DNA of 64,000 nucleotides from Eutreptiella sp. 'Long Island Sound 2002' (Eukaryota > Euglenozoa > Euglenophyceae > Eutreptiales > Eutreptiaceae): positions 41,975,228 through 42,039,227 of the forward strand of contig OZ038378.1 in assembly GCA_964036045.1 (NCBI GenBank), written 5' to 3'. Below, one piece after another: positions 8,391 to 37,710 of this stretch. Made by a program: the position numbers and the translations under genes. The notes under the pieces were generated by a model. It was not told where the DNA came from. It searched no databases and saw only the letters and a list, made by a program, of their open reading frames with translations. Every line of letters starts with the position of its first letter. Within the stretch, counting starts at the first letter, position 1.

Positions 8391-8394
8391 CAGG

Positions 8395-9873: not shown

Positions 9874-10711
9874 TCATGTCCGTCTCTTGCGGCACCGGAA
9901 CAGCCGCTGTAGAGTCTGAAGGTGCTGCATGTCGGTTAGAAGCCGTCTTCTTGTGCGGCTTGCATACGTTTGTACACTAATGGGTCCTTGCCCATGCTGA
10001 GCCCTTTTGGTCGCATCCCACCCATGCAACCAAAGGCTATCGTCAATGGTGTGGTTGTCCACAACCACTTGCACCCCTAGTCTCCCCCGGAGGAGGCTTA
10101 GGCCCCCGCTGTTGCGCAACATGCGCTTCAGCCTCCGGTGACTTCCCTCCATGGCAAAGCAGGAGAACTTTGACAAGATTCTCCACTTCTTTGCAAAATA
10201 ATACATGTGGTCAATCCAAAGATGCGTCCACAGAAGTTTGCCCCACTGGAGCTCATTGTGGGCAGCGCCCATGGCTATGCTATGGTTCTGGAGCCGCCCC
10301 AAGTCGGCCCCGGAGAACCATGCAGAACGCCACGCGTATTCCTTTGGCTACCATCTGTACGTTTCTGGCCGGAGGCGCGCTTTTGTGGCCCACGGTGTTG
10401 CACGTAAGGTTTTGAAAACGCGTAGAGCGCGCACAACGCGTACAACACGTACAGACCAAGTAACACGCACAGAACGCGTAGCACGCCGAACACGTGCCTC
10501 CAGCGGCACGTGCAGAATTGGAATACCGGACCGCGCAGAACGCGCAGAACGCGCAGCACGTCGCTTTGCACACGGGCGCACATCGAGGAGGGGCCGTGTC
10601 CTCACAGTTGGGTATCCAGCCTACGCGGTTGTCCCCCAGGGTTCGCACTGGTCCCATGGGTAGGGATAGCAGAGGCTCCGCCTCCATGATCGTCTCGTTC
10701 AAGTTCCCCAT
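9874..10711 (-). CDS. Transposase C-terminal part, two exons
   Basis: An ATG at 10711 opens a 46-codon exon ending at 10574. An intron (10573-10348) leads, in phase 0, to a 158-codon exon ending with a stop at 9874. The last exon contains FSCFAME-GSHRRLKRML, preceded by a Trp/His-rich stretch (LLWTHLWIDHMYYF). The same block ends the transposase at 35.8-37.7 kb (LLEGSNRVLKDIW), where the Glu is a likely catalytic acidic residue. The part that normally comes before this block is found 5.5 kb upstream at 16271-17566. The ATG is in the same frame as the PiggyBac-type gene, separated from it by one TAG and three codons, so a read-through product is conceivable. I take it as half of a split transposase gene. 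Confidence 0.6.
10348..10573 (-). other. Motif-rich intron, 226 nt
   Basis: Donor GTGTGCAAAG, acceptor GATGGTAG, phase 0. Inside are repeated CGCGTTCTGCGCG words and one GCCGCTGGAGG, the signature of the introns at 12.3-16.3 kb. The reading frame continues across it. Confidence 0.6.
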
Positions 10712-10720
10712 TCCACCACA

Positions 10721-12298
10721 CTACTCCTCATCCTCCTCATCCTCCTCATCCTCCTCGTCCTCCTCATCCTCCTCGTCCTCCTCGCCTTCCTCGTCCTCAT
10801 CGCCTTCCTCGTCCTCCTCGTCCTCCTCGTCCTCCTCGTCCTCCTCGTCCTCCCCGTCCTCTTCGTCCTCCTCATGGTCCTCCTCCCACACCTCCTCGTT
10901 CTCCTCATCTACCTCCATGTCCCGTGTGCCTTGCACACCTCCATAGCCATGTCCCGGTGCAAAGCACAACACGTGGAATGCCTTTCCACAACCGGTACAT
11001 TCATAGCCGGTTCTTCCCCTCTTGCAAAAGTGGCACACACGCCGCCGTTGTGTCGCCACCGGCACGTGTACCTCTTGTCGTAGGGGGTGGGCAAAGTACC
11101 GCCGCCGCAACACTTGCCATTGCCATTCCCACATACTAGTGGTCTCCTTGCAAAGTTCCAATTGCCGACGAGTTGCGAACACATTCACAACCGCGTACCG
11201 GAGCACGAACGCACGCACCGCGTGGGCCCATGTCATCTGGCGGCCCACCTGCCTCATCTGCAGGGCCATCTGGTTCACACCATCAACATCGCGCGACAGT
11301 GTGCGGTACGCCGCCACCACGGGGTGCACTTCCCGCCCGCTTCGCCGGTGAGGTGGTCCCTTTCGGGCAAACCACACATTCGTCAACATCGGCACAACGC
11401 CGGGGGGTTTGTGCCCGACCTTCGGATTCTTGTACGTGCACAGACTGTACTTGAAATCCGCAACAGTGCACACCGCCGTCTGCCCCTCCTGCACCTGCTC
11501 CCCGGCCCATGTCACGCCGTACGTGGACCTCTTCGTCATCATGGGGAATGGCTGCTTGTTGGCAGCCAATTTTTGTGCAAGGCCTTGGGACCCGAAAAAG
11601 GAGTCGGTACATAGCACCGTCCCCTCGGGCAGCAATGATGCCCACAACTTCATGATGTTTTTGGCATCGAAGTTTCCCGCCGCAGTACCGTAGCGGCGTA
11701 GCCGGCCACGTACATCGGTGTACAAATACATGTCCACCACGTACCCCCATGCTGCATCGGCCAGGCAATACAACTTTATCCCGGTTGGGTGCGGTTTCTG
11801 GGCTATGAACGTTTTCAAGGGGCCCGCTAGGATTCCCTTGTGGGGCACCACGGACTCATCGCCGCAGGCCCCGCCCCCCATGCACCACGCCCCCGCCCAT
11901 TGGCCATTGCAGTCGTCCAGTAGCGAGACGACATCGGTACGTAGCAACCATTGCAGCAAGTAGTATTGGCGACGCGTCAGCATGTTTGCCATATAGGGAT
12001 TGTATAATAGGCCCTTGCGGTCCCAAACCCCGTCCACCTGCATTGGTCGCACCATCCCCAATAGAATTAGAAATGCATTGTACCTAGGTACTAGAGGTAG
12101 CAGGTCTGGCCTTCCGTGGTACCGTAGGGCTTGGCATTGTGGATTCTCTATGGGGGCCATGATATGGTCCCACACCTCGTCCTCAGTATAGCCGATGAGC
12201 CAGGATTCCCCGGGCCGGATACCGTACTGGATATCGGCCGCACAGTCCTCCCGTGGGAGCCTATGGTCGTACAGCGGTGGTTGAAATTTTGATGGCAT
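10721..12298 (-). CDS. PiggyBac-type transposase with acidic tail
   Basis: The 525-residue protein starts at the ATG at 12298; upstream sequence in the same frame is intron. The DDE_Tnp_1_7 fold is recognisable: YCLADAAWGYVVDMYLYTD (Asp181), VLCTDSFFGSQ (Asp232) and RDVDGVNQM (Asp339) match the three catalytic aspartates of PiggyBac transposases. WAHAVRAFVLRYAVVNVFA follows, as in the family. Residues 422-450 are a cysteine-rich zinc motif (CHFC, CTGC, H, C, H), the usual C-terminal DNA-binding domain. The last ~65 residues are almost only Glu and Asp, which is unusual. The gene ends with TAG, but the next gene is in the same frame. The element's TIRs and 7-bp duplication are not PiggyBac-like (no TTAA), so this gene may be cargo or a domesticated copy. 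It has no internal stop and looks intact. Confidence 0.88.
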   Translation of the reverse strand: MPSKFQPPLYDHRLPREDCAADIQYGIRPGESWLIGYTEDEVWDHIMAPIENPQCQALRYHGRPDLLPLVPRYNAFLILLGMVRPMQVDGVWDRKGLLYNPYMANMLTRRQYYLLQWLLRTDVVSLLDDCNGQWAGAWCMGGGACGDESVVPHKGILAGPLKTFIAQKPHPTGIKLYCLADAAWGYVVDMYLYTDVRGRLRRYGTAAGNFDAKNIMKLWASLLPEGTVLCTDSFFGSQGLAQKLAANKQPFPMMTKRSTYGVTWAGEQVQEGQTAVCTVADFKYSLCTYKNPKVGHKPPGVVPMLTNVWFARKGPPHRRSGREVHPVVAAYRTLSRDVDGVNQMALQMRQVGRQMTWAHAVRAFVLRYAVVNVFATRRQLELCKETTSMWEWQWQVLRRRYFAHPLRQEVHVPVATQRRRVCHFCKRGRTGYECTGCGKAFHVLCFAPGHGYGGVQGTRDMEVDEENEEVWEEDHEEDEEDGEDEEDEEDEEDEEDEEGDEDEEGEEDEEDEEDEEDEEDEEDEE

Positions 12299-12865
12299 CA
12301 CAAACAAAAATTGTTGAGAAATGAGACTCTGTAGAACACACAACACACCAGTGGCAGTTCCAGAGGCAACAGCAGAGGCAGCAAAAGCGGAACGTGCAGA
12401 ACGCGCAGCACACGCGGAACGCGTAACACGACCTCCAGAGGCAGACAAAGAAGCAGACGCGTAGAGCGCGTATCACACCAAACACACACAGGACAGGGGG
12501 TTGGGCAATGGGGGCGGCAACACGAACAAGTCAATTGTTGCTTTCTTGAAACGATGTCCGTGCACCCTACATGGTCCACGCAGAGCAGCGGCCGCAGCCG
12601 CCTCCATTCATCCGAACGTCGAAAAAGTATTCACAACACAATAAATACCGGCGTCGGTGCCCCAATGGAAGCGCCGCCTACCGATGCCACCACTGTGGGG
12701 TTGGCTGTGAATGTGCTTGCTGGGCCAACGGCACTGGCCTGGAAAAGAAGAGGGGTTGTGAGGTGTGTCTGCCGCGGACCTCATCGGGGTCGGGCCATTC
12801 ATCCCCCTCCTGTGTGTTTGAAAAAATGCTGCCTGGACTGCTCCAACTTAGGTCGGCCCGATTTA
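12299..12865 (-). other. Spacer with one motif-rich intron
   Basis: Between the stop at 12866 and the PiggyBac start lies about 570 bp. It contains an intron-like segment (12329 to about 12488) with acceptor TTCTACAG, GCCTCTGG repeats and CGCGTTCTGC words, so the PiggyBac transcript probably has a spliced 5' leader. A Cys-rich frame on the plus strand here looks accidental. Confidence 0.5.
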
Positions 12866-13054
12866 CTAAATCTGCACTATCTCGTCCTTCTCCTCCATCT
12901 CCTCTCCCGCCGCTGCGGCTTCCTCCGGGGGCTCCTCTCCCATTTCCGCATCGCTCTTCGGTGCCCCAGCGCTCTCTTCCTTGGCTGCCTCCGGCTCTTG
13001 CGGTGGATCCATTGGCGCGGTCGACTCCTCCTCTGGCTCCGTTTTGATTGGGTG

Positions 13055-13235
13055 CTGCAGAACACGGAACACGCGTGAAACATGCAACCCACCTCTAGAG
13101 GCAATCCGAGAGGCACAAAAAAGGAAACGTGTGGAACGCGCAGAACGCGGAGAACACGGGGCTCGCATCCAGAGGCACACCCGGAGGCTACGCGCAAATC
13201 CCCTAGAACGCATAGTACCAATGTGCAACGCGCAC
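13055..13235 (-). other. Motif-rich intron, 181 nt
   Basis: Phase 0. GTGCGCGTTG at the donor and GTGTTCTGCAG at the acceptor. Contains GCCTCTGGATG, GCCTCTAGAGG and CGCGTTCTGCGCG. Confidence 0.75.
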
Positions 13236-13607
13236 CTGTGCACCTTCCGTGTGCAAGGCTCCCGTCTCCGGCCCCATCTCCGGCCTGCCTTGCTGCCCCC
13301 TGGACGGTGGCGGTGGTGGCGGACGCCCCTGCGGCATTGGCTGGGGTGGTGGGAGTATTGGCGCTGGTGGGTCATCCGGCGGTGGCGGTGGCTGCAGCAT
13401 TCCTTGCGGTGGAGGATACGTGGGTGGCGGCGGATAATCCGGGGGCTGGTACTTGTACGGGTCGGACCCATACGGGAGACTCCCGGAGCTCGAAGGCATG
13501 TCCGGATCCGTCCTCATCCGCTGGTACTCGTACCGCGGCTCATACTCGTATCGCGGCTCATACGGATACCCATGCTGCTGCGGATACCCATACTCCTCCC
13601 AGGTTGT

Positions 13608-13761
13608 CTGCAGAACATGCAGAGCGCGCAAAGCAGTTAAGACATGGGAAGGCAAATCCAGAGGCAGTCACAGAATCGAACGTGCAGACCACGTAGAACG
13701 CGTGGGAAGCCCAAAGCATACAGGAGGCAACTCCAGAGGCAAGTGAAAAGACCCGTGCCAC
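13608..13761 (-). other. Motif-rich intron, 154 nt
   Basis: Phase 0. GTGGCACGGG at the donor and ATGTTCTGCAG at the acceptor. Contains TTGCCTCTGGAG, TGCCTCTGGAT and CACGCGTTCTACG. Confidence 0.75.
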
Positions 13762-13914
13762 GACGTCCCGCACAGGAATGCACACCCGCTGCCTCTTTGC
13801 ATCCTTTGTTCTCACGAGTGTCCATGCCCCTGTGTCGGGGAGGTCCACACCTCGGTCCTTCGTTAAGGCGTAGGCCATGAGACCAGCCATGCGGACTGTG
13901 CGCGACAGCTTCTC

Positions 13915-14074
13915 CTGTACAGACCACGCAAAGCGCGTGCAACACCGGAAGGCACCCCCAGAGGCAACGAAGAGGCGAAACGTCGGGAACACATAGCACG
14001 CGCAGAACGCTGAAGACGCGCTACACGCTGCACTGGAGGCGTTACAGAGAAAACACGCAACACATGCAGTACAC
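13915..14074 (-). other. Motif-rich intron, 160 nt
   Basis: Phase 0. GTGTACTGCATG at the donor and GGTCTGTACAG at the acceptor. Contains TTGCCTCTGGGG and GCGTTCTGCGCGTGC. Confidence 0.75.
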
Positions 14075-15027
14075 CTGCAAAGTGTCAGTGGGCATGTCGA
14101 CAATGTCCTCCGCACCAAACGCACTCAGCTGGTCCATGGTGCGCCGTGGTCGGTATCCAGACCACAGGGGCTCCCCTTCAATTTCGCCAACGGCAGGCCT
14201 GCAGCTGCGGGGTCACCAAATTCTGTAGGCCAGTCCGGGGCTCCGACACAGTTCGTGCACACCGACACCCCCTTGATCAACCATGTTGCGACTTGGCGGG
14301 GTGAGCTGCTGGGGTATCGCTCCTCAAACAGTTCTCTGGCAGCGGCTGTGCTTTGTGCATTCTTCGTGCCACAGCGGAGGACCATCTGCACACTGTACGC
14401 CCGCACGTCCGTCACCAGAAGCAGCGCCAGGCCCAATTCGCGGCGCGCTTGTGTTTCCCCGGCCAAACACACTTTGTAGTGTTGGCATACTCGTCCGAGT
14501 GACACTTCATATTCCGACTCCAGGGTGCGCTGCATGACCTGCACATGGTTGTCGTAGGCGGCCCCGGCTTGGTACTTCTCCCCTCGGGTTGCACGTGTGC
14601 GCATCGACCTGTGCGGTTCGCCTTCCACTGCGTAACGCACATGCTTGGGCTTCTCCTCCACCTTCTTCTTGCCCTTGCTCTTCTTCTTGGGTGGACTCTT
14701 CGTCTTTTCTTTCTTGTTCTTGGACAGCTCCTCCGGCTCTGGCCTTGCCTCTGGCTTTGCTTCTGGCTTCGCCTTGACAGGGGTCCCCTTTGATTGTGCG
14801 GCCATGCGGGCAACCTCCAGGTGGGTGCTGCGGGGGGCGCGTTGGGCGAGGGAGGGCTCGTCCTCGTCCTTCACACTGGCAGCATCACTGCCCTCCTCGT
14901 CCTCCTCCTCCTCCGTCTCCTCTGCCTCCTCCGGCTCCTCTTCCGACTCCTCTTCCGACTCATCCTCATCCGAACTCTCCGTGGTTCCCTCATCTTGGAT
15001 CGACGTCCACAGCCGGTCGCGCGGAAT

Positions 15028-15195
15028 CTGTAGAACATGCAGAACATGCAAGACACATGGAGACAACCCCAGAGGCAACACCAGAGGAAGCGCGCAGAGC
15101 GCCGAGAACGCGCAAAACGCATAGCACACAATGAGAGGTAGCTGCAGAGGCAACGAAAAAAGGAGCGTATTAAACGCGCAGAACGCACAGAACAC
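15028..15195 (-). other. Motif-rich intron, 168 nt
   Basis: Phase 0. GTGTTCTGTGCG at the donor and ATGTTCTACAG at the acceptor. Contains TTGCCTCTGCAG, TTGCCTCTGGGG and repeated GCGTTTTGCGCGTTC words. Confidence 0.75.
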
Positions 15196-15282
15196 CTTTT
15201 TGTATTTCAAGAAGCCATCCTTCTTGTTGCGGACGTCTTGCACCACGTGTGCCACATCTGGCTTGCCCTTCGGGGCCTTCAC

Positions 15283-15542
15283 CTGTAATAAAAGGGTGCA
15301 AGAGGCGGTAGTGGACAACGGGAAGCGCAAAATAGTGCTCACATGAACCACAAACCCGTGAACGTGGTACACCTGATACGTTGTGAGGTTCGTCAACCAA
15401 AATTCTTTGTCCTGCTTGTCCTTGGCCCCTTTCTTCTTCCGATTGACCCATCCGGCATGCCACCCCGCTGCGAGACAAGGGGGTGAGGAGGACAGCGGTG
15501 CAAGGCGAGAAGCGAGACGAAAACGGAGACACACACACATAC
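15283..15542 (-). other. Two ordinary short introns in the acidic gene
   Basis: The introns 15542-15468 (75 nt, GTATGTGTG donor, TCTCGCAG acceptor, phase 1) and 15342-15283 (60 nt, GTGAGC donor, ATTACAG acceptor, phase 0) lack the repeated motif. They show what a normal intron looks like in this gene. The exon 15467-15343 lies between them. Confidence 0.65.
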
Positions 15543-15725
15543 TTGTGGCTTGTTTAATTTGAAAGACAACGAAGGCGTCGTGCTTCAGTTTCTCCGGATG
15601 CTTCCACTCTCCCAGCTTCCCACTCTTCTGCAACCATTGACAATGTGTGGCGGGGTACAGGGGTGCAGGCATGGCTCCTGCACCATAAAAGCAAAGTGGC
15701 CTATGAATGTTGGGACAAAAACATG

Positions 15726-15871
15726 CTGCAGAGCACGTAGCACGCGTAGAAGGGCTCCAGAGGCAACGTCAGAAACGAAAAACGACAACACACATAACAC
15801 CCAACACAAGTGGGCAATGTAGCACCAAGGCAAACGCATAGGCAGAAGGCAATTGTCGTTGGAATACGCAC
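15726..15871 (-). other. Motif-rich intron, 146 nt
   Basis: Phase 1. GTGCGTATTCC at the donor and CGTGCTCTGCAG at the acceptor. Contains TTGCCTCTGGAG and TACGCGTGCTACG. Confidence 0.65.
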
Positions 15872-15980
15872 GTTTCAGTTCCATTGGGAACCAGTGCAGG
15901 ATTGTGGCAGAGTACACGGGTGAGGGCACCGCAAACAAAAAAAATCGGGGGTGGTATGATAGGTGTGAAGCGCTTAGCCT

Positions 15981-16270
15981 CTGCAGAACGCGTAGAACGC
16001 GTAGGAAGACTTCCAGAGGCAGACTCAGAGGCACTGGACCGAAACACGCAGGACGCGCAACACACGCAGCACGCGTAGCACCAAGACAGAGGCAGAGGCA
16101 GGAGGCAATTGTGCTTCTCTCCTCGAAAATGGTTGAATTGAGCTAAACGGATACTTCCATTGCGTCGGGCACCCTCGAAAACCCCCCGAAAGCACAAAAC
16201 AATCATAAAAGCAAAAACGCGAGAAAAATTCGTGCTATGCGTTCTACGCGTGGTAGCCAAAGCAGTATAC
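15981..16270 (-). other. Motif-rich intron after the transposase exon, 290 nt
   Basis: GTATACTGC at the donor and CGCGTTCTGCAG at the acceptor, phase 0 on both sides. Contains TGCCTCTGCCTCTG, TGCCTCTGGAAG and TACGCGTTCTACGCG. If the donor is not used, the upstream exon reads on to a TAG at 16244. Confidence 0.55.
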
Positions 16271-17566
16271 ACACATGCTTGCAAAATTCTCCCACCACGT
16301 TTTGCACACCGACTCCCAACTTTTTCCCCCTACTTGATGCTGCCTGACACTAGGCTGCTCTAGGCAAGCATCTATTATCTTCTCCCAACCCTTATTGCGC
16401 ATGAAATGGATGGCAGCAGCACACTCCATCCTCACCTTCCCCTTGCTATTTGCCTGGTCATTATTTAATGAGGCACGGGTGCAAGTTCGTGCAGCAAGCC
16501 GTGCCTCATCTAAAACCGGTTGCAGCATGGTGCGTGCCACAGTGGCCGGTGCCTTCCCTGTCAATTGTACAACTAGGTCCCGTGTCCCGTTGACTGCACA
16601 CAACAGGACACGAAGGACCCCATGGAGGCCATAATCAGGCACTCGCCTATCACTCATAATGGTCCTATATATAGCACTTATGGCAACGGCTGGTTCCCAG
16701 TTGCCGTCTATCGCACTTGCTGTGCCAATGGTAGCAAGGCACAGAGCACGGTTACGCATGCAGACCCAACACACAGTGGCACCAGGGGATTCTGCCTTCC
16801 AGTTTTGGCAGCCCGCCATGAGCACCTGTGCCTTACCATCTGCACACAGAAAAAAAAGGGACTGCCTATCGTTCCCTGCCGTATCCTTAAAACTTACGGT
16901 TGCGGCCTTGCGCAACTCATCATCAAAATCAATTTCCTGGGAGGCCGCGTAGAGGGTCTCCCAGTTTTCACTGCCCCCTAGTAGCCACCAACTAGATAGT
17001 TGGTTGGGGCTGGCGATGCCACCAAGCGTGCAATGGACGTACGAGGCCTCATGCCTCGATGTACCGTCCACCGCAATAGGCAACCAATGCAGCCGTCGGT
17101 CCCCGGGCTGCATGATGGCCGAGGGTGGTGGTGGTCGACACTTGAATAGGTGGGCGATGCGGTCAGGTAGGTAGCAGGCTGCACCTTTGATGGCGGTGTC
17201 GTCACCCGTATAGGCAGTGAACGCCCGGGACTCCGGCAGCGCTAGCTGCCGAAGCATGCCGTACACCTGGTCCCATACCACACCGTACGTCATGCTCCCC
17301 ACTAGGTACCGGGACTCTGTCCTAGAGAGGTGCAATGACCGGATCCTCCACACGGCCATAATCAACCTCTCCTCCTGGGTGGGCTCGGGCTGGACGGTGG
17401 CTACAATTCTTGTTTCGGGGGTAAGCACTATTTGCCCCGTGTCGGACAGGTACTTGACGGTGTAGGGTGCTGCAAGCTCCTTGGTAACAACCTCCTGGAG
17501 CTCTTGTAGGCGCCGCCGTCGTGTACGATCCGCTACCAGATGGAATGGCTCCTTGGGCCGTGGCAT
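16271..17566 (-). CDS. Transposase N-terminal and central part
   Basis: The exon of 432 codons starts at an ATG at 17566. It contains LCADGKAQVLMAGCQN followed by CWVCMRNRALC and then PDYGLHGVLRVLL. The ADGK and CWVC blocks align with GDGKVMMSG and CWICNLK of the damaged transposase at 20.6-22.2 kb, so the two are paralogues. The end (SWESVCKTWWENF) matches ETWCLLKVWEDL of the transposase at 35.8-37.7 kb, just before the place where that protein continues to its Glu motif. Here that continuation is missing and appears at 9874-10711. I infer a DDE-type transposase with the first Asp in ADGK. The family could be KDZ-like; it is not PiggyBac. No internal stop is present. Confidence 0.6.
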
Positions 17567-17667
17567 GGTGTGAGATACAGGACCTGTTGAATGGGCAGGC
17601 AGTCATCGCAAAGTTTCTACCATCCCCCTCCCGCAGACAACTCTCTCTACTGTGATTCGCATGCAAT

Positions 17668-17835
17668 TAAAAGAAATTCACATAGATTCGCACGAAATTT
17701 GTACGAAATTCGTACGAATTTCGTACGAATTTCGTGCGAATTTCACGTGAATAGAAATGTGTGAATATTCTGAAAATGTGAAATTTGTACGAAATTCGTA
17801 CGAATTTCGTACGAATTTCACATGACTGTCACGGA
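17668..17835. repeat. Internal TTCGTACGAA array
   Basis: Two clusters of TTCGTACGAA palindromes, separated by about 40 bp of unrelated sequence, lie 100-270 bp upstream of the ATG at 17566. Position suggests a promoter or transposase-binding region. The same palindromes lie near both ends of the element. Confidence 0.7.
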
Positions 17836-17948
17836 GTTTCTGCCAAAGCCTCATCCTTCTGCCCTCGTTGACCCTCACAAAGCAAGCTCAGGATGGTGCT
17901 CATGGGCTATCACACACCCAGTCCAGTGGCTGTCATTCCGGCTGTCAC

Positions 17949-19484
17949 TCAGCCAGCAGTGTAACACGTCAGGGGGCATAGCATACCCCAAATAAAATAC
18001 AAACAGTTCCGCAGAAAAAATCGCAAACAGGTCAGGGGGCACACCGTAATCCAATCAATGTACAAACAGTGCTGCAGAAAATTTCGCACAGTTGGGGGGT
18101 AGTACCCCACATATCGGTCAAACTGCCCATGCTTGGGGGGGGGGGGGATAACATTCGTCGTGGTTAGAAAGGACAGGTGCTCCGGAGGGTACCTACGCAC
18201 CCCCCCCCAGGGAGCAGAGCTCCGGCTAGCGGTGCCCTGGGAGCTCTGCTCTGCCACCGCCTCCACAAAGGAGGGGTCCATGGCCGCCGACGTGAGGCGG
18301 TGGGGGGGGTACTGCCGGCGCACTTCCTCCATTGCGGCAGTCACCTTGGGGGCGTCAGGGGCCACGCTGTCCACATCGACCTGCTGGCCACTGGCCATCA
18401 TGGCCATCCGCAGGCCGGTGGACACTGCGGACATCTGGCCGGCGCATGCCTCGGCCTGGGCATGCCAGGCCTGTGCGCCGGCTAGCAGGTACCGGACACC
18501 GGCAGCACCTGCCCCCCCCCTGTCACCCGGGGGGGCGGGGGCCTCGGCACCCTCAGCCCTCTCCACTGCCTCTGCTGGTTGTGCCGCTGGCTTTGCCTTG
18601 CGCAACGTCGCCACGTCGCGCTCAAAAGTCCTCACCTTGGTGGCCAGCCGGTCACGCTCCTTGGTGACGTCCGCCAACCGCAACTCGCAGTCCCGCCTGG
18701 ACTCGTGGACCCTGGACAGACGAGCCTCGAGGTCGCGGTTGGCGGCCTCCGCCCTGATGGCGCGTGCCTCCCAGGCCCCCGCCCGCTGCTGGTCCACCCA
18801 CTCCTGCACCACCCCCCTCTGCCCCCGCCCCCCCACCGGCTCCGCCTGCTCCGCTCCCACTGCCCGCTCCGCCGGGGTGGCCGTACGCGGGGCTTTGGGG
18901 GGGTGGGTGGGGCCCGTGTCCCCTTTGGGGCGCCCTTTCTGCTTGCGCGTGGGGGGGGGTTCGTCCTCCTCGACGTCAATGACGTCAACCACCACCCCCC
19001 TCTTCCGCTGCCTCCCCACATGGACGCGCATGGCAAGCCATGCCACGTCCACCCACTCCGGCCTCCGCTGCTCCCAACCTGTGAGCACATTCAGCCCACA
19101 AATCCCAGCCGTCGTTACCGTCCCCGCCTCCCCGATCCGCGACACCCCCGTCTGCACCCGCCAGTGCCCACTCACAAGCCGGTAGGCAAACATGCCCACC
19201 AGCTCCTGCCCCGCAGGCAGGTTGGACCCCCCCCCGGAGCACAATGGGGCAGGGGAAGAAGATGCGGAGGGTGCCCTGCACCCCCCGCGACTCCAACTCC
19301 ATGTCCCACACGGCACCGAGGTGCCGCTGCCGCCCATCGGGCCCGGGCGGCACCTGCTCGGTCCAGGCCGGATCCGGCTGCCTGGCGGCCAGGGTGACCC
19401 AATGTAGCCGTTCCCATCAACAAATTTGAGGGGCGGCTGAGAGGGGCCAACCCTGTCGGGGGCCGGGTCAGGGCTGCCCGTCAC
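17949..19484 (-). CDS. Coiled-coil protein, paralogue of the one at 23.7-25.9 kb
   Basis: The minus-strand frame is open for 511 codons. A globular part (FAYRLVSGHWRVQTG, then WVDVAWLAMRVHVG) is followed by a short acidic-basic linker and a long coiled coil rich in Arg, Glu, Ala and Leu (about 18560-18790), then an Ala-rich tail. The globular part resembles FNVRASGALYNIRLPIRVV in the gene at 23.7 kb, and the order globular part then coiled coil is the same. The N-terminal ~80 residues are in doubt: a better frame (DMELESRGVQGTLRIFFPC) switches to this one at a run of nine G near 19235. Function unknown; the coiled coil suggests an oligomer. Confidence 0.6.
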   Translation of the reverse strand: MTGSPDPAPDRVGPSQPPLKFVDGNGYIGSPWPPGSRIRPGPSRCRPGPMGGSGTSVPCGTWSWSRGGCRAPSASSSPAPLCSGGGSNLPAGQELVGMFAYRLVSGHWRVQTGVSRIGEAGTVTTAGICGLNVLTGWEQRRPEWVDVAWLAMRVHVGRQRKRGVVVDVIDVEEDEPPPTRKQKGRPKGDTGPTHPPKAPRTATPAERAVGAEQAEPVGGRGQRGVVQEWVDQQRAGAWEARAIRAEAANRDLEARLSRVHESRRDCELRLADVTKERDRLATKVRTFERDVATLRKAKPAAQPAEAVERAEGAEAPAPPGDRGGAGAAGVRYLLAGAQAWHAQAEACAGQMSAVSTGLRMAMMASGQQVDVDSVAPDAPKVTAAMEEVRRQYPPHRLTSAAMDPSFVEAVAEQSSQGTASRSSAPWGGVRRYPPEHLSFLTTTNVIPPPPKHGQFDRYVGYYPPTVRNFLQHCLYIDWITVCPLTCLRFFLRNCLYFIWGMLCPLTCYTAG

Positions 19485-20101
19485 CCCATGAGGGGGGTCG
19501 GGAGGGGTTCGGTGCAGAGGGGGGGTTCACACAAAATGAAGGGGGGGGCGCATGAGGCACCACGGTACCATTGCAAAGAAGTTGTGCTATAGAAGGTGGG
19601 GTGGGTGACGTCAGGGACGTGCACCTGGGGGGGGATGGTGGGATGGGAAGGGGCGGCGCCCAAATCATCCCACCACCGGGGGTTGGCAAGATGCCAAGAA
19701 AAGGGGAAAAAAGAGTGGTCTGCTGGTGCACTTGCAGCAAGATCTTGCAGGCACACCATATCGCAGTGGGGGGGGGTGTGGACGAGGTTAGTGGTGGGGT
19801 ACACCTGGACGTGGGCGTCCTTAGGCTTCCCCACAGGGTTATTCCTCATCGAGTTGAGGAGCTGGTCAACACTGGAGGGAAGAGGGGTTAGATGGAGAAA
19901 TTTGAGGGTGGGGAGTTGGTGGCGCAGTTCCCTCCACAGGGTTGTGGCCCATCCCCTCCCCCCGAGGTAGCTGTTGCGGGTGGGGCTGCGCATGTCGATG
20001 TGGATGACATCGGGGGAGGGGTCGAGGGAGGCTGCCCAGCCCACGATGTCATCCACCCCCAGTGCCTCCGACTCGTACGTTGCCTCTATGGTGAGCATAA
20101 C
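19481..20101 (-). CDS. Exon of unknown protein after a palindrome intron
   Basis: A 207-codon frame begins at the acceptor GGTATGCCAG (20102) and reads VMLTIEATYESEALGVDDIVGW, then LWRELRHQLPTLKFLHLTPLP. The composition is protein-like, with no repeats until the last 60 residues, which are Pro-rich. No family is recognised. The last bases overlap the start of the coiled-coil frame. It is probably the upstream exon of that gene, with a frame change at a G or C run. Confidence 0.45.
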   Translation of the reverse strand, partial: VMLTIEATYESEALGVDDIVGWAASLDPSPDVIHIDMRSPTRNSYLGGRGWATTLWRELRHQLPTLKFLHLTPLPSSVDQLLNSMRNNPVGKPKDAHVQVYPTTNLVHTPPHCDMVCLQDLAASAPADHSFFPFSWHLANPRWWDDLGAAPSHPTIPPQVHVPDVTHPTFYSTTSLQWYRGASCAPPFILCEPPLCTEPLPTPLMG

Positions 20102-20606
20102 CTGGCATACCAAGAATACCCCCCGAAAACAGCCATTTGCCCATGGGATAGAAAAAAATGAGTTTAGCACCCTGAAAATAGGGGGGGGGGGTCAAAACAC
20201 CGGAAAGCCAATTCCATACACCCACACCTGTGTGTGGCAATCTACACTTTTTGAGGTATTTGTCAGTATACTCTAAGTATTTGAGAAGTATTCTTGCCGT
20301 ATACTTCGGAGTATACGGCCGTATACTCAGAAGTATACGGCCGTATACTTGGAGTATACGGGGACTTTCTACCTTCCACCCATGCCACCATTCTCATCAC
20401 CTACCCCTCCCCCTTGCATTTACTCATGACCCTGCAACCCCCAAACACATTGTACACACAAAAGAGCACCATATGAGCAAAGCAGAACACCACAAGAAGC
20501 AACCTTGTTTGATGTCCCATCCGAAATGTCAAATGTGATCCACTTCCCCGTGTTATATATACCTAATATACACACTTACGCATATTGCACATCACATGAT
20601 ATATAC
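20102..20606 (-). other. Palindrome intron, 505 nt
   Basis: Donor GTATATATC just after the transposase frame, acceptor GGTATGCCAG. Three to four copies of GTATACGGCCGTATAC lie at about 20297-20360. The acceptor end resembles, on the opposite strand, the donor end of the intron at 27458-27965 (GTGAGCATAACCTGGCATAC). Confidence 0.65.
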
Positions 20607-22196: not shown

Positions 22197-22349
22197 CTAT
22201 TGTAAAAAAAACAGGGTGGACCATAACATGTGAAACAAAATAGGGTGCTAGCGTTGACGTTTGTGGATGCAGAGCACATACTGCATAGGGGGTCAAATGC
22301 CGGCGTTTTGATTCCCTCACAAAAATCTTGAATGCTCTCCAAACAAAGC

Positions 22350-22598
22350 CCCTTCTCCTTCTGATGGGCATTTGCAAACATATTGCTTACAATAATTGCT
22401 GTGGAGAGATGTGCCAGGCATATGTGGGCCAGTTGCCCAGTGAAACCGTGCGCACAGGCGCATGCAACAGGCGCACAGCATGTACGATTCAGCACAAATC
22501 TTTCGCCGTATACTTCGAGTATACGGCCGTATACTTCCAGGTATACGGCCGTATACTCGGAGGTATACGGCCGTATACTGGTAGTATACGGTGCTCAC
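22350..22598 (-). other. Palindrome intron after the dioxygenase exon
   Basis: Donor GTGAGCACC at 22598. Four GTATACGGCCGTATAC copies at about 22505-22595. The acceptor is not certain; CATCAG near 22360 is possible. Confidence 0.6.
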
Positions 22599-22934: not shown

Positions 22935-22935
22935 C

Positions 22936-25905: not shown

Positions 25906-25914
25906 TGTCTCACC

Positions 25915-27438: not shown

Positions 27439-27457
27439 GGTGGCAGAAAAGAAGGGC

Positions 27458-27965
27458 CTGGGAGAGCAAGAAGCAACATAATATGGATTGGAATGGACAC
27501 ATATGGAGACATACATTGCAATCTTGAATGAAGTATGAGCCTACATTGGTTTCAAGTGGTGTGCAATTGTTGGGCAAAGGCAAAGCATGCAACAAGATGG
27601 GCACAAAAGGCACAACAATGGAATTTTTCAACTTGAAACAACCACATGGTGCAAACAAATACCCCCAGTATACGGCCGTGTACTCAAAGTATACGGCCGT
27701 ATACTCCAGAGTATACGGCTGTATACTGAGGTATTGGAGCCTTGAGTATACGGCCGTATACCCCAAGAGCCCAAAATGGGGTAGTTTCAAACACAACATT
27801 GACCATCACAATTGGCAAACTAGAGGTATTCCCCAACCCACCTATGCATGCATTGTGCATTATACATTCGTACCCACCTGTACATGCCACATACCCCTTT
27901 CTCCCAAAACCCCCTTTTTTACCCGTATACTCCCAGGTATTCCTGGTATGCCAGGTTATGCTCAC
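27458..27965 (-). other. Palindrome intron, 508 nt, in the dioxygenase leader
   Basis: Donor GTGAGCATAACC, acceptor CTCTCCCAG. Five GTATACGGCCGTATAC-type copies lie at about 27667-27760, with one half-site at 27925. Joining the exon at 27966-28082 to the next one shifts the frame by one base, so the first exon may be a leader with its own short frame, or the splice sites are slightly different. Confidence 0.6.
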
Positions 27966-28082
27966 CATATCCTCCAATTGATGGTGGGCAACGGGGAGGG
28001 CTTGGTAGTGGGCGAGAGTGTCGGCTGCGGGGTCGGGGCGCGAGGCGAGGCTTGCGAGTTGAGACATAGTCTGCTGCGACAT
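27966..28082 (-). CDS. First exon of the rightmost gene
   Basis: An ATG at 28082 opens 39 codons rich in Ser, Ala, Gln and Leu and ends exactly at a GTGAGC donor. Upstream, GCTCTCAAAGC and CTTTCGCTTGG are shared with the gene start at 31175. It should belong to the dioxygenase gene, but the frame does not connect. Confidence 0.45.
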
Positions 28083-28099
28083 TGTTAAAAGAGAAGAAC

Positions 28100-28140
28100 G
28101 CGAGGGCTTTGAGAGCTTTAACCAAGCGAAAGAGTGGAAA
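28100..28140 (-). promoter_or_regulatory. Upstream block shared by two gene starts
   Basis: The block AGCTCTCAAAGC preceded by TTTCGCTT lies 20-55 bp upstream of the ATG at 28082. A near-identical block lies 15-40 bp upstream of the ATG at 31175. Shared position in two related genes suggests a promoter or leader element. Confidence 0.45.
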
Positions 28141-28262
28141 GGAGGGTAAATTCGTACGAAATTCGTACGAAATTCGTGACACTCGTGAATCTGTGAATCT
28201 AGCGTGAATTTCTGCGTGAATTTAGGTGCGTGAATTTCACATTCACGTGAATCTCACCAAAA
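28140..28262. repeat. Right subterminal TTCGTACGAA array
   Basis: TTCGTACGAA twice, then spaced GTGAAT and TTCACGTGAA words, about 180-300 bp from the right end. It mirrors the left subterminal array. Confidence 0.75.
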
Positions 28263-28446
28263 GTGTTAAACCATGCGGGGACGTTAAACCTCTACATTGC
28301 ACCTATTAGTTGCATCTTACTTTGGGCGGAGATAGCACGACAAAAGCACACGATAGCACCAAGTTACGAGCAAAACACAGCAAAATTGGGTGAAATTCAC
28401 GGTACCGTGAGTCTCGGATTCAAACAGCCGGTTCACGAAGGGTACA

Positions 28447-29540: not shown

Positions 29541-29549
29541 CACACACGC

Positions 29550-30128: not shown

Positions 30129-30179
30129 TTGATCAACTTGAGATCACACGAACGCGTGATGGTATCACTTTAACCAACA

Positions 30180-30425: not shown

Positions 30426-30849
30426 GTTTTGTCCTGGCGCCCCCGAATCACTTGTTCAATGGCTTCGATGGCATGCAACACATCTGCTTTGGAGTCCAGC
30501 ACCCTCAAAACTATGGAGGGGGCAAAATCTCACCATCCAGCCCTGAAATTCCTGGTTTTAGCACTTTGTGGGATGCAGCGTTCTAGGGCGTGGTGCGGAA
30601 CCCCTAGTTAGAACGCAATTTCTGGAACACCCACCTACCCTCAATTTTGGGGCGAACCACCTAAAAAAATGGATTCAGCACCCTCAAAAACCCCCCATCC
30701 CCTTTCCTTTCCCCACATAACCCTCATTGTAGGGGTGGTTTTTTTTGGGGGGGGGGGGTCAAAGAGTTGGAGCACAGTTAGAACAGAGTTAGAACGCAGT
30801 TAGAGCACCTTGCTCTAACTAGTTATCGCGCTAGTTATCGCGCGATAAC

Positions 30850-31175
30850 TTCCCGGCATGAGCGGTGACGGACTCCACCACCGCGTCCACATCCTCCGTA
30901 TGAAGCAGGATCAAAAATCCAGCAACCCCTGGATTTACCTCTAGCAACTGGAAGATGTAGTTGCTGAGAACCAGGGGGTCTCGCTTGTCCGCCATGAAGG
31001 GGGACTTATGGACAAGGAGTCCAAATTTAAAGTCCGCACCATGTTCAAAGCGGGTCGTCACAGGGCGCCTCACATTGGCATCACCCATCGTAAACCCCTC
31101 AGGACCGCCAAGGCGACGGACCCCAAGGAGCTTTTGATGGTGCTCGCACCAAGCCTGGGCAGCAGCAAGGGCCAT
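30850..31175 (-). pseudogene. N-terminal fragment of a second dioxygenase gene
   Basis: From an ATG at 31175 the frame reads ALAAAQAWCEHHQKLLG, then VNPGVAGFLILLHTEDVDAVVE. It ends at a GTTATC donor made of the local palindrome. The order and spacing match the N-terminal part of the dioxygenase at 25.9-27.4 kb (DPLLSLFDNNPNLQAIVLQL, DSDARAVVEHV). The catalytic part is absent. The upstream block (GCTCTCAAAGC) is the same as at 28.1 kb. Confidence 0.55.
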
Positions 31176-31239
31176 TACGAAGAATATGAAAGCTTTGAGA
31201 GCTAAAGCGAAAAGGGGAAACATAAAATGAAGCGCGATA

Positions 31240-31345
31240 ACCTACGCGATAACTCGCGCGATAACTAGTTATCACGCGGTAACCCCCGCGATAACCCCCG
31301 CGATAACTAGGTTATCGCGCGATAACCCACGCGATAACTAGTGCT
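31240..31345. repeat. GTTATCGCGCGATAAC palindrome cluster
   Basis: At least six overlapping palindromes built from TAGTTATC, GCGCGATAAC and CCCGCGATAAC lie upstream of the fragment; two more lie at its 3' end (30820-30850). Confidence 0.8.
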
Positions 31346-31734
31346 CTAACCCCGTTCTAACCCCGTTCTAACTAGTTAGAGCACACAAAGATCAAATCGC
31401 AAAAAGTGCAAAACGGGCAATATCGAGCAAACGAAACATGGAAGGCACATTGTTGCATCATAGTGCACCCATGTAAAATGTGAAATTCCGGGTTCCAACC
31501 AAATTAACAACACCCAAAACTGGGGGGGTTCCGCACCACGCCCTAGAACGCTGCATCCCATGTGAGCACATTTAAGGTCATCCATGGTGTGTTTCGGCCT
31601 ATGAGGTGCTAAAAATGGACTTAGAGGGCTGCCACCATGAAGTAAGAGGTTGATTTCCTTTGCAAGTGTCCAATGGTGCCTCCATGCAACATATGACGCT
31701 GATTTCAAGGGTTCAAGAGGCAATCCGACAAATG

Positions 31735-31886
31735 CTTACAATACCATCCTAAGCCCCAAACACGTGTGTGGACGGCGATAGGTGATCAAAACCCTACCTA
31801 TGAACCATATGGATATGGAGCGCAAAAGATGCAAAAACGGGCCAAAAACACCTCAAATCTGCATCGTTCATCACATTCTTATGCCC
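31735..31886. repeat. ~190-bp satellite, one unit left of the 5.9-kb element
   Basis: The unit contains GTGTGTGGACGGCGATAGGT, CCTACCTATGAACCATATGG and CATCGTTCATC. It is cut at about 31887 and the family resumes at about 37795. Confidence 0.8.
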
Positions 31887-33288
31887 GTACCCTGCGTTCG
31901 CGCAATGTTGCATTTTTTCCATAGTGCGCGCAAATTTTCAAAAATACGACGTTTATAGCGCGCCTATTGCGCGTGCTCTACCGCGCCATATTGTCCCGTT
32001 TTTCAAATTTTTCAAAACCGGAAAATGTCTCAAAAACATGCTTTTTCCAGTGTCCTGCATTTCTCAAACACCCCTTGCTTTTCAAAAATATTCCCTGTTG
32101 CTCATTCAACCCAAGACACATGCAAAAACACTGTCTGAAAGGTCTGAAAAGTGTGCAACAGTACAGGTCCTCACGGACGAAAACAGTGTAGCGCGCGCAA
32201 CATATTTACAGCGCGCGCTAGGAGCCTTATGGCGCGCGCTATACCAGGTATAGCGCGCGCTGTCATTCAGTGATATCACCAATGGTTTGGACCACCACTT
32301 CGGCCTCCCACTCCTTCTCCCATTCGGGTCTGTGGTCTTCTGCCCCAGTGGCAGCTGGGGCTGCATCCCCTTCTTTGTGGTCTTCTGCCCGAGTGGCAGC
32401 TGGGGCTGCATCCCCTTCTTCTTGTGGGCTTGGGTCGCCTTCTGGGGTTGCTCCTTCTGGTGCCTCTTCTTCTTCCGGGGCTGCTCCTTCTCCTTCTTGT
32501 GGCGTGGCCGCTGGTGCCTCTTCCTCTTGTGGTGGGGCTGGTGCGTCGTCTTCTTGTGCTGCTGCTGCTGCTGGGGCTGGTGCCTCTTCTTCTTGTGCAG
32601 CTGCTGCTGGTGCTTCTGCTGGTGCTGCAGCTTCGGCAGGTCCCTTGTCTCCTTGTGGGGGGGCTGGTGGCTCGGCTGGTGGGTCTCCTTGGGGCTTCTT
32701 CTTCTTTGGGGTTGGTGGCTTGGACGGGGACATCCTCATGGTCTTTGGGTCGGGGCAGAGGTCCTCAATCTCATCGGCCTCGTACGTCTCCCACCACGAC
32801 TGCCACTTGTTTAACTCCTCATACGCTTTGCTTTTGGCGGAGAACACCTGGCAGCTGGGCGTGAACTCCGACCAGTCGTCCTCTTCCTCCTCTTCCTCCC
32901 CTTGTTGGCTGAGGCTCCACTGATCGTTGGGAATGATGACGGCCACGTGGTCCTGAGGGGCCCTCCTGGCGCCTGCTGGCTTGATTTCGGCTCCCTCCAC
33001 AATCATCGGCGCGATCGCAGTGGTGCAGTAGATGATCCACCGAGGCTTGTAGCCGTCTTTGTAGGACCAATCTCGGCGCTGCATGAGCTCATCTCTTGCC
33101 TCCCTGTCCGCGTCGGCTCTGCTCTGCTGCTTGGCCTTGGGAGCCGTACTGGGTGGGGTGGAACCGCACGGACCTCCTTGTTCTTGTGGCTGGTCTGGGA
33201 CTGGGACAGGCTGCTTCCGTGCTGGCTTTGGTGCTTGCTTTGATACGAGCTGCGGCTGGGGTGCCTGCTGCGGTGCCGTCTTGCTTGC

Positions 33289-33403
33289 CTGGAAAGAGTA
33301 GCGCGGAGGCATAGCACAGGCATAGAACGCGCAATACGAAACATAGCACGCGCGACGAGATGCATAGCACGTGCAATGAGGACGATAGCGCGCGCTGCAT
33401 TAC
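33289..33403 (-). other. GCGCGC intron, 115 nt
   Basis: GTAATGCAGCGCGCGC at the donor, CTCTTTCCAG at the acceptor, phase 0. Contains repeats of the type TTGCACGTGCTATGC and GCGCGTGCTATG. Confidence 0.8.
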
Positions 33404-33982: not shown

Positions 33983-34107
33983 CTACGTGACAATGGGACA
34001 GAAGGTAGGGCCGTAGCGCGCGCAAACAATCAAATCGCGCGTGCTACAACAAATGAAGCGCGCGCAACAATGTCGAAAGCGCGCGCAATGGCAAACATAG
34101 CGAGTAC
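33983..34107 (-). other. GCGCGC intron, 125 nt
   Basis: GTACTCGCTATG at the donor, GTCACGTAG at the acceptor, phase 0. Contains ATTGCGCGCGCTTTCG, GTTGCGCGCGCTTC and TTTGCGCGCGCTACG. Confidence 0.8.
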
Positions 34108-35205: not shown

Positions 35206-35348
35206 CTGCGGAAAACAGGGCAAAGCACGCGCAACCAGGACGTGCGTAGTGCGCACAAGGAGACAGCTAGCACGCACAATAAGAGCGTAGCACGCGCAAC
35301 GGAAACAGTAGTGCGCGCAACGGAAACAGTAGTGCGCACGGCAAGTAC
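35206..35348 (-). other. GCGCGC intron, 143 nt
   Basis: GTACTTGCCGTGC at the donor, GTTTTCCGCAG at the acceptor, phase 0. Contains two identical GTTTCCGTTGCGCGCACTAC-type units, then GCGCGTGCTACG. Confidence 0.8.
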
Positions 35349-35803
35349 CTGTGGCTGCATGCTCCACGGCGTCGTTGACGGCTGCTGCAGTCCCGGTTGT
35401 ACAGCTGCATGTGCCGGTGGTTGCGGTGTCGCACCTGCTCCTGTGGCCCCTGCAGCAGTTGTTGGCGGTGCTGCAGGAGGCGGATACCCCCAGCCCACGG
35501 GCTGCATGGGCAAGAGGGTTACATTAAAGTACTCCTGTTCCAGCAGTAATACAAAATGGAAAATGCAGTAACTAAAAAATCAAAAGCACCAAAACAAACG
35601 GACGAAAAGGAACAAATCAATGCAATCCAAATTCCAATCAATGCATTCCAAACGCTTTAAGTGCGTAGTCATAGCACGCTACTTCCGACTATATATCGCG
35701 ATTTCAAGGGTGCCGGCGCTTGAAAACAGCATAGCGCGCGCGATAGTGATCATTCCGCGCACTAGATAACATGTAGCGCGCGCTAAAAAACAAATAGCGC
35801 GCG

Positions 35804-37710
35804 CTACCAGAGTTCCTCATCCGCAAAATATGCCCGAACCTCGTCAGCCAATTTTTGTGCATTGCACAGGTTGCTTCTGGAGTTGCCATTCCACCTTGGT
35901 ACTTCAAAGTACAGGAACAGACGCTCATTAACCTGCCTGAGCATCTTCATGCGGAGCGACACCAGGGTTCCTGCCCCCCCACCTCTATCACAAAAGGAGG
36001 ACCAAATGTCCTTCAGCACCCTGTTGCTCCCTTCCAAAAGATCACCCCAAAACATTCCTAGGCCATAGGGCCTTATGGCCTAAAAAGTGACTGTTGCATC
36101 GTGCAACATCCAGTTTATATAAGGTGATCTTATTGCTGGACAAACCCACCTCTGGAAAGCATGGGCAACCTTCGGAGCCTGCAGTGCACCGTCTTCAAAC
36201 ATTGTGCCATACATGTCCCCCAGTAGTATGTACATGGTAACCACTGCTGTGTGCATTCTCATGTCACCCCCAAGGAGGGGGGCCAGGTCCTCCCAAACCT
36301 TTAGAAGGCACCAAGTCTCTTCCCCATCTGGCTCTGCCGTCCCCTGTAGTGCTATGTGACAACCAGACCTGTGAAGAATAGCCTGAACAGAGACCTTAGT
36401 ACTGGGATGCACAGACTTGGCCAATCTGCGTACCAAGGCAGTGACCTGCCTCCCTACAAAAATCAGAAGGTGCAGAACACATGGTATAAGGTGACGACGC
36501 CTCAGAGGCACCTTCAACAACCTGCTCTGGACAACACCAAATATATCCATGGGCCTGCACTTGGCCCCAGGTGCAATCAGCCCTAGCAACTGCTCATCTC
36601 GCTCGGTGGTTCTATCCACATCCTGTTGCAACCACGTTGCACTGGACTTGCACCACGTCATGTAAGTGAACAGACTACCTGCCATCCAATGTGTAGTGAC
36701 ACCCGACAACCGACGCAGCCAAGGGCTATCCCCACCGCAGAAAATCCTACAGCGTCTGGATGCACCCCGGATGGGAAGCACACCAGTGTCAAGGGCCCTC
36801 TGCAGAAAAGCAAGATTGTTAGCCCAGACCTGGGACAACACAGAGGTGGACTTCTCACCACAAAGGGCGACGTTAACAGTCCAGTGGTAGGACAACGTCC
36901 TTGCCAAGTGACCATGGTTGGCAAAGGAAATGGACATCTGGCACCACGATTCCCCCCCACAAGGCAACCCATCCCCCCTCACAATGATCCACAGCTCTCC
37001 TTGGCACTCCCTGGGGTATTGGAGGTTAGAAACAATGGAGTCAAAGGAAAATATATTGTCAGGAACGTGCTGCAGGGTCCACTGCGAAAAGACTGTGACC
37101 CCATCTGTGTGCACGGCAACCTCTAAATGCTGCCTACTTGCAAGGTGGTTCCATTCTGTGGCGAAACTAGCATAGGAGGGGAGAGAAAAAAGGTGTGTGG
37201 GGACCTTACTTCTCGTCCAAGTAATCAAATCTTTGTACCTGAGGAAAATAGCGCGCGCAACATGGGGACGTAGCGCGCGCAGAAGTCAACGAAGCGCGTG
37301 CTATGAGCGGAAGTGCGCGCAATGTCACATGCAAAGCGCGCGCAATATAACCTTCTTCTTGGAATCTTCAGGAGCAGGACCAAGTCCACCACCGACAGGG
37401 GTGTGACGGCGTTGGCAGCCTCGGTCCTGCGACGCTTCTTCTCTGCTTCAGACACGGGGACCCTTTTTTCCAACCTGGCCCACAAAGACAGTTGGACGGC
37501 AGACCCTGAGCAAAAGAACTCAACTAGGTCCGCCAAAAGGTCCTCGTTCTTCCACAGGGACCACTCATAGTGGGGGCCCGAATGTTTGCAATCTTCCCTG
37601 ACACTAACAGCGTCAGATGCGGTGCCGGAAGAATCTGAAACTTTAGAAAAATAGGCGTTTTTGCCCTGCTTATTAGGACATGGGGTTACAAACCCAAGAC
37701 CCCCAGCCAT
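35804..37710 (-). pseudogene. Transposase of the 5.9-kb element, one in-frame TAG
   Basis: Exon 1 (37710-37352, 119 codons plus 2 bases) joins exon 2 (37238-35804) across a 113-nt intron, giving 597 residues. A TAG at 36080-36082 interrupts the frame. It continues to GDLLEGSNRVLKDIW, which aligns with AMEGSHRRLKRML of the 9.9-kb copy. VAVHTDGVTVFSQWTL, GAKCRPMDIFG and LIPCVLHLLIF align with parts of the copy at 16.3-17.6 kb. The stop lies in a small inverted repeat (GGCCATA and TATGGCC) that may be an insertion. Alternatively GTTTGT at about 36145 and TTTTTAG could be a 66-nt intron that removes the stop in frame. The likely catalytic Glu is present. I infer a DDE-type transposase. Confidence 0.6.
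37239..37351 (-). other. GCGCGC intron in the transposase, 113 nt
   Basis: GTTATATTGCGCGCGC at the donor, TTTTCCTCAG at the acceptor, phase 2. Contains five GCGCGC or GCGCACTT words. The frame continues across it (KIPRRRYKDLI). Confidence 0.8.

Follow-up and report, generated by a model that had tools for sequence, protein, structure and literature searches.

Arrays of family-specific short words in the non-coding DNA of nested DNA transposons of Eutreptiella sp. 'Long Island Sound 2002'

The stretch of 64,000 nucleotides from Eutreptiella sp. 'Long Island Sound 2002' analysed here (the window; contig OZ038378.1, positions 41975228-42039227, of a 2.28 Gb genome in 2205 contigs) had been described, in a sequence-only reading, as a series of gene modules the introns of which share a CG-bearing motif specific to each module. 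These modules belong to distinct DNA transposon families, some nested in others, and each family packs much of its non-coding DNA, namely its ends, intergenic gaps and introns, with a short repeated word of its own. The element designated K holds both the piggyBac-like element A and element B, A-prime lies within B, and a short derivative of family S and element C stand separately (Table 1); K', a relative of K, and further copies of several families were analysed in fetched loci (designated L). The placement rule is one of non-coding slots, not of introns, since element ends and some intergenic stretches match the introns in word density, and since none of the K arrays lies in a recognised intron. 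Judged from their sequence, the arrays probably represent clustered binding sites for an element-encoded DNA-binding protein, by which each family would recognise itself.

A matrix of seven words against twelve sequence samples is nearly diagonal, and as the words were picked from these same families it is the near-empty off-diagonal that is informative: own-family counts are 18 for A, 8 for A-prime, 36 and 38 for B, 29 and 11 for S, 8, 9 and 6 for K, 82 for K' (24 loci) and 31 for C, while off-diagonal counts within elements are 0-3. The 35.6 kb of the window outside the elements hold 6, 0, 2, 0, 0, 0 and 0 words of the A, A-prime, B, S, K, K' and C types, respectively, as compared to 2.9, 4.0, 0.3, 0.4, 0, 0 and 1.8 in shuffles. 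The earlier claim that the motif is constant within a module and differs between modules is borne out by this matrix, whereas its description as a property of introns is not, as ends and some intergenic DNA are equally dense. The words quoted at the time were recovered, with 14 exact copies of GTATACGGCCGTATAC, five of GCGTTCTGCGCG (all on the minus strand) and GCGCGCGCTA confined to 32.2-37.7 kb; low-complexity repeats aside, they are the top enriched 8-mers of their own modules. By interval, the enriched 8-mers include, again apart from low-complexity ones, CAGAGGCA and CGTTCTGC for A, CGAATTTC and AAATTCGT for K (interval 9421-17950, which contains A and K), CCGTATAC and ACGGCCGT for B, GCGATAAC and GTTAGAAC for S, and GCGCGCTA for C.

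Genome-wide exact counts, which covered the B, K, K' and S words, amounted to 4078 on the forward strand for the B word (reversed control 1), 5029 on the forward strand for the S word (reversed control 0), 3285 forward and 3244 reverse for the K 21-mer (reversed control 0) and 124 forward and 108 reverse for the K' 21-mer (reversed control 0). The B sites are clustered, as 48 of the 50 distinct listed sites (of 4078) have a neighbour within 40 bases. Family words are mostly CpG-containing palindromes, those of B, S, K and K' all being palindromic. Units recur every 11 bp in the K and K' arrays, every 19-24 bp in C (with a single step of 42) and, for the most part, every 21-22 bp in B, where steps of 33 and 35 also occur; the 11-bp spacing (K, K') and the predominant 21-22-bp spacing (B, C) come close to one or two turns of the helix.

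Twelve introns were delimited by GT-AG borders, with reading frame as the only check (A2-i1 to i6, one ahead of the piggyBac start codon, B1, C1-i1 and C2-i1 to i3); across each of the twelve joined borders the expected frame stays open over the 90 nt to either side. This check is weak for A2-i6 and C2-i3, which are open in all three frames, and for A2-i2, B1, C2-i1 and C2-i2, which are open in two, because further frames are open as well. That introns with frame-checked borders carry the motif holds for five of the seven A introns, the single B intron and all four C introns, and does not hold for A2-i1 and A2-i2. Word densities, which rest on our own exon and end limits and, for A and C, on word positions in the window copy, were 13.8 per kb in A introns, 11.7 and 15.7 in the A ends, 0 in the A intergenic stretch 12500-12865 and 0.3 in A exons (1 word in 3537 bp); the corresponding values for C were 46.4 in introns, 24.5 and 61.7 in the ends, 24.0 in intergenic DNA and 0.2 in exons (1 word in 4323 bp). 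Exons hold 0-1 family words per element, with none in the 4821 bp of B exons as delimited and none in the 3786 bp of K exons. The K arrays lie at both ends and between genes, with none in any K intron recognised here, the window S derivative retains S arrays at both ends, and two of the four B arrays (20.3 and 27.7 kb) are subterminal. The 27.7-kb array was ruled out as an intron, given the unbroken K4 site in L018; it only seems intronic because B is inserted in K, to which the exon at 28.0 kb belongs.

As far as sequence can tell, the strongest single argument for a family-specific signal in a pre-existing intron is provided by gene B1 and its counterpart S1, the latter being located in an autonomous-looking S copy (L007 into L019). 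The two are homologous (25% identity over 590 columns, E 1e-20), with exon 1 aligning at E 4e-24 and exon 2 weakly, at E 0.02-0.04. Their introns fall in the same alignment column and in phase 0, after ...LWCICNQ in B1 and ...MCPCHQ in S1; the B1 intron is 558 nt long in the window and 582 nt in L005 and has 8 B-type sites, while the S1 intron is 242 nt long with 12 S words. The positions are likely to be identical, though less than certain because few residues align near the border and B1 has a 36-residue insert there. The assignment of both proteins as 2-oxoglutarate (2OG) oxygenase-like is unproven: S1 matched PhyH (E 0.011) and 2OG-FeII_Oxy_3 (E 0.068) below threshold and has the pattern HRD...VHRG...R in common with B1. 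In PDB profile comparisons a segment of S1 weakly matched a 2OG dioxygenase (E 0.26), and a better score (E 6e-4) was obtained with a small portion of a chain of 3566 residues that bears the name RanBP2-type zinc finger. A small open reading frame (ORF) similar in S (L019:1183-1791) and B (window 22598-22924), GEFWVESGG...FNTRALHAPLPWEGERWSVIFY, resembles an oxygenase C-terminus by eye and gave no Pfam match.

A change of word between close relatives is also evident from K and K'. The K' loci were found by protein and not by word (the best 30 of 93 scored, from 6477 candidates), and 24 of the 30 are non-redundant once near-identical copies are removed. The K' transposase P0066 is 55% identical to K1, the K transposase, in pairwise and 59% in multiple alignment. 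The K' word TTCGCGCGAA is present in 30/30 loci and the K word TTCGTACGAA in 0/30, with exact words flanking the transposase on both sides in 25/30, these being the two places that K uses as well. The two words are different palindromes, two bases apart in a ten-base core, and among the 24 copies the arrays differ by whole 11-bp units. The terminal repeats differ as well, being TTCGTGAA in K and TTTGCGAA in K', and the way in which the repeats differ (TGTACCCTTCGTGAACGG in K, TGTACCCTTTGCGAATTG in K') parallels the words, which as one comparison is suggestive. P0092, 46% identical to K1, has TCGCGCGA-type words in its 0.8 kb flank (by eye).

The limits of A and B were read from interrupted and unbroken sites. 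The K1 frame stops at 16.27 kb and continues at 10.34 kb, and K1 is unbroken in the K copies L050 and L051; the target duplication of A in K1 is 4 bp, GTAT on the plus strand (ATAC), from the one insertion read, and that of K is likely 2 bp, CA (read by eye). The target duplication of piggyBac elements is 4 bp, classically TTAA. Element B starts with TATGGTGAGC, and the unbroken K4 site in L018 fixes its ends and a 2-bp duplication, GA here (minus strand) and CT in L005; TAT precedes GGTGAGCATAACC in 8/8 B ends of the fetched loci, and a duplication of AT was ruled out by the L018 site, as the ends start with TAT. The motif order D, D, C(2)C, H(4)H, E was read by eye in the K1 family (in P0027), and the last motif of B2 is A in the window copy where L005 has E. 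K1 matched no Pfam family at E<=1, P0027 none at E<=5, and no NCBIfam match was obtained; one scan of viral_contigs with K1 gave no relative, and profiles of the K1 and B1 families compared with the PDB yielded nothing convincing. The A2 frame shifts once within the exon between introns 3 and 4, and the C ORF has at least 103 matches in the genome.

The sequence-only reading had offered introner spread, gene conversion and selection for a DNA signal as explanations for the uniform introns, of which the last fits best; gene conversion may account for changes in unit number, and introner spread does not fit. Under self-recognition, each family would bear arrays of its own word in subterminal regions, at gene boundaries and in introns; a protein of the same element, either the transposase or an accessory protein of the B1, S1, K4 or A2 type, would bind them, and this binding would mark the element as "self", so that it is transposed, expressed or shielded from silencing. 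Introns would host arrays because little else in so compact an element escapes coding constraint. The families and their nesting, the specificity and positions of the words, the turnover of 11-bp units in K' and the change of word between related families, a homologous intron included, are shown by the sequence; we infer the binding of the arrays by a protein, its element-encoded origin and its purpose. If the arrays are indeed self-recognition sites, the family words of one genome would number at least seven (A, A-prime, B, C, K, K' and S), the close relatives K and K' would allow a direct test of transposon protein-target co-evolution, family-specific arrays known from VANDAL and partly from CACTA elements would extend to piggyBac-like and other elements, and the oddly uniform introns would be explained without introners.

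Were the motif introns derived from a mobile intron that had multiplied within each gene, their lengthwise likeness would be accounted for, mutual identity being 64-70% in A (z 4.7-8.6 against dinucleotide shuffles) and 61-70% in C (z 1.9-5.7), and some of the A introns may have common ancestry, given this resemblance. Such identity is low for recent copies, however, and the same words occur at element ends and between genes. At the B1/S1 intron, one column and phase in two families is combined with different lengths and words; because this homologous intron holds each family's own word, a DNA signal is favoured there and an introner origin is rejected, and elsewhere it is unlikely, making introners overall a very improbable explanation. 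It is somewhat less improbable, albeit still decidedly unlikely, that the words act within introns as signals for the splicing or processing of transposon transcripts. Words are on the sense strand in 26/28 cases in A and 18/23 in C introns, several A acceptors end in TTCTGCAG or TTCTACAG, and AG is scarce in seven of the nine A and C motif introns (not A2-i4 and A2-i6); but the words of B, S, K and K' are palindromic, words also occur in subterminal and intergenic DNA, and they vary among families that use one spliceosome. Neutral turnover, in which slippage and gene conversion homogenise short repeats within each element without function, appears unlikely, although the whole-unit differences among the 24 K' copies and a non-CpG divergence of the K' arrays (0.047) equal to that of other non-coding DNA (0.050) are as it would predict. 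Unequal exchange or gene conversion may alter the number of units per array, in 11-bp steps in K', but on its own leaves unexplained that arrays approximately 2 kb apart share a word and change jointly between K and K', where the terminal repeats differ too.

Several observations weigh against the arrays being binding sites for self-recognition. The scans made revealed no candidate DNA-binding domain; the structure models of B1 (mean pLDDT 33) and K1 (mean pLDDT 54) were too poor for use, and a fold search with the latter gave no significant match (best Hermes transposase, E 0.12). The K' arrays show the same rate of divergence as non-coding DNA elsewhere, as given above. Two A introns (A2-i1 and A2-i2) and one A intergenic stretch are without the word, and the A word is non-palindromic and on the same strand in 26/28 cases, unlike the usual inverted sites of transposases. 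Neither the S step of approximately 12 bp nor the A step of approximately 9 bp fits helical spacing.

Decay of CpG sites was used as a proxy for hypomethylation, meant to separate a role in transposition from one in anti-silencing, with mixed results. As compared to the window copy, 10/99 motif CpGs had changed in B, against 140/547 in ORFs (p 4e-4) and 32/130 in other non-coding DNA (p 0.006); these loci were chosen by word, with one exact site per locus dropped, so that some bias may remain, and any mutation of the window copy is counted repeatedly. In the S arrays, which were not word-chosen, 8/142 had changed, against 35/329 in exons (p 0.12) and 12/58 in other non-coding DNA (p 0.003), and non-CpG change is higher in the arrays. 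The K' arrays, also not word-chosen, had 9.8% CpG transitions versus 7.3% in non-coding DNA and 4.7% in the transposase, and hence no protection. Our conclusion does not rest on CpG decay. A further-reaching and rather doubtful proposition is that several unrelated superfamilies of one genome each evolved a self-tag like that of VANC in VANDAL elements, consisting of CpG-bearing arrays bound by an element-encoded protein, which in B and S would be linked to a 2OG-oxygenase able to strip DNA methylation locally, with word and protein co-diverging at each split of a family.

Table 1. Elements, genes, introns and word arrays of the window
Feature	Position	Strand	Remarks
K element, outer, holds A and B	9421..28446		ends TGTACCC...GGGTACA; sits in 65-bp satellite; further copies L050, L051
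K array TTCGTACGAA, subterminal, 3' of transposase gene	9682..9765		
K1 transposase, 5' part	16269..17566	-	3' part 9874-10339, A insertion between; 108 homologues
K array TTCGTACGAA, between genes K1 and K4	17686..17819		
K array TTCGTACGAA, subterminal, upstream of K4	28148..28177		
A element, piggyBac-like	10340..16264	-	ends TCCTTTGGCTACCA/TGGTAGCCAAAGCA; inserted in K1; site unbroken in L050, L051
A left end with family word	10348..10690	-	4 copies, all minus strand
A transposase ORF, DDE_Tnp_1_7	10721..12298	-	Pfam 2e-18, 67.2 bits, cut-off 22.4
A intron ahead of piggyBac start codon, family word	12329..12487	-	
A2 intron 6, family word	13055..13235	-	
A2 intron 5, family word	13608..13785	-	
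A2 intron 4, family word	13915..14074	-	
A2 intron 3, family word	15028..15195	-	
A2 intron 2, without family word	15283..15372	-	
A2 intron 1, without family word	15468..15542	-	
A right end with family word	15700..16264	-	possibly including 5' UTR (untranslated region) introns; word count over 15700-16273
B element in K gene K4	20087..27969	-	ends TATGGTGAGCATAACC/GGTTATGCTCACCATA; second copy L005, 96-98% identical
B array, subterminal	20296..20361		
B2 transposase-like ORFs	20607..22196	-	D, D, C(2)C, H(4)H, E by eye in L005
B array between genes	22505..22591		
A-prime, 464-bp insertion in B	22925..23388		absent from L005; own variant words AACGCGGA, CCAGAAGC
B1 intron, 8 GTATACGGCCGTATAC sites (<=1 base off) at 24892-25068	24817..25374	-	also in L005
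B1 gene, first large exon	25525..27458	-	2OG-oxygenase-like by motif; 26 homologues
B array, subterminal, not intronic	27666..27763		
S-family derivative, short	30569..31560		36-bp perfect inverted repeats; words GTTATCGC, GTTAGAAC
C element in 191-bp satellite	~31890-37792	-	ends CCCTGCG/CACAGGG, TA-flanked; by eye, tentative
C array, left end	32188..32262		
C2 intron 3, family word	33289..33403	-	
C2 intron 2, family word	33983..34107	-	
C2 intron 1, family word	35206..35348	-	
C array, intergenic	35731..35806		
C1 intron 1, family word	37239..37351	-	
C array, right end, reaching C1 start codon	37709..37785		

The surroundings of the elements contain further repeats. A 65-bp satellite of approximately 17 and approximately 2 copies (28447-29545 and 9279-9420) is split by the K insertion, and a 191-bp satellite (37817-38664 and 46526-46941) also flanks the C insertion. 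In L051:1-2398 the outer flank of a K copy is B sequence (by eye), K thus lying in B, the opposite of the nesting in the window. Ahead of A2, at 15850-15960, the translation VPSPVYSATILHWFP resembles MPAPLYPATHCQWLQ of A2 exon 1 and perhaps represents a duplicated first exon. A GC-rich 209-bp tandem array of 11 copies (41309-43620) has a consensus with GCGCGCGCTC, which is C-word-like. The window also harbours a retroelement polyprotein (55852-59787, plus strand) in which Pfam recognises a reverse transcriptase (5e-26) and an RNase H (1e-22), and a region of low complexity with long G runs (5300-9300) that includes a 249-bp repeat (7285-8052); tRNA and Rfam scans gave no matches.

In VANDAL21 of Arabidopsis, the YAGTATTAY words bound by the anti-silencing protein VANC21 crowd the non-coding parts, among them introns of VANC21 and VANB21, and these repeats have a rapid turnover (PMC5735166). 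The elements described here are similar in their family-specific word arrays in non-coding DNA, which in VANDAL are likewise dense in the VANC21 and VANB21 introns and upstream of VANA21, in the turnover of tandem repeats and in the presence of relatives with different words (PMC5735166, PMC10398659); they differ in that the words are mostly CpG palindromes and are carried by piggyBac-like and other DDE elements, and no VANC relative was identified here. Subterminal motifs of CACTA elements vary by subfamily and are proposed to bind TNPA-like proteins (PMC2613891). CACTA/EnSpm elements resemble those of the window in a repeated subterminal motif that is subfamily-variable while the ends are conserved (PMC2613891), and in a transposase with C(2)C and H(4)H, whereas the present arrays are also intergenic and intronic and the ends are not CACTA. 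The arrays share their architecture with VANDAL and CACTA, a likeness that falls short of shown membership in either.

The C(2)C and H(3-4)H motifs are common to EnSpm, Transib, Plavaka and ESTA (PMC12730594), and both lie between the second D and the last E in the K1 family and in B2 of L005, as read by eye. The fungal TET/JBP DNA transposons of the CMCT clade are alike in having a 2OG-oxygenase-like gene, a D, D, C(2)C, H(4)H, E transposase and short duplications of 2-3 bp, those of 2 bp occurring in PlavakaA or ESTA (PMC12730594) and, here, in two B insertions and by eye in K. They are different in that S1 matches PhyH below the cut-off only and gave no TET/JBP match, and in that word arrays do not feature in the passages on the fungal elements (PMC12730594); homology of K1 or P0027 to known CMCT transposases was not detected by Pfam, NCBIfam or fold search. 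Element A has the DDE_Tnp_1_7 transposase of piggyBac elements. Introners (PMC9860276) share with these elements the similarity of introns within genes; here, however, words extend beyond introns, a homologous intron has retained its position while its word differs, and near-identical copies creating introns at many sites were not found (61-70% identity; a conserved intron with different content). Literature searches, the coverage of which left most subscription papers outside, did not find this arrangement for piggyBac-like or K/B/S-like elements.

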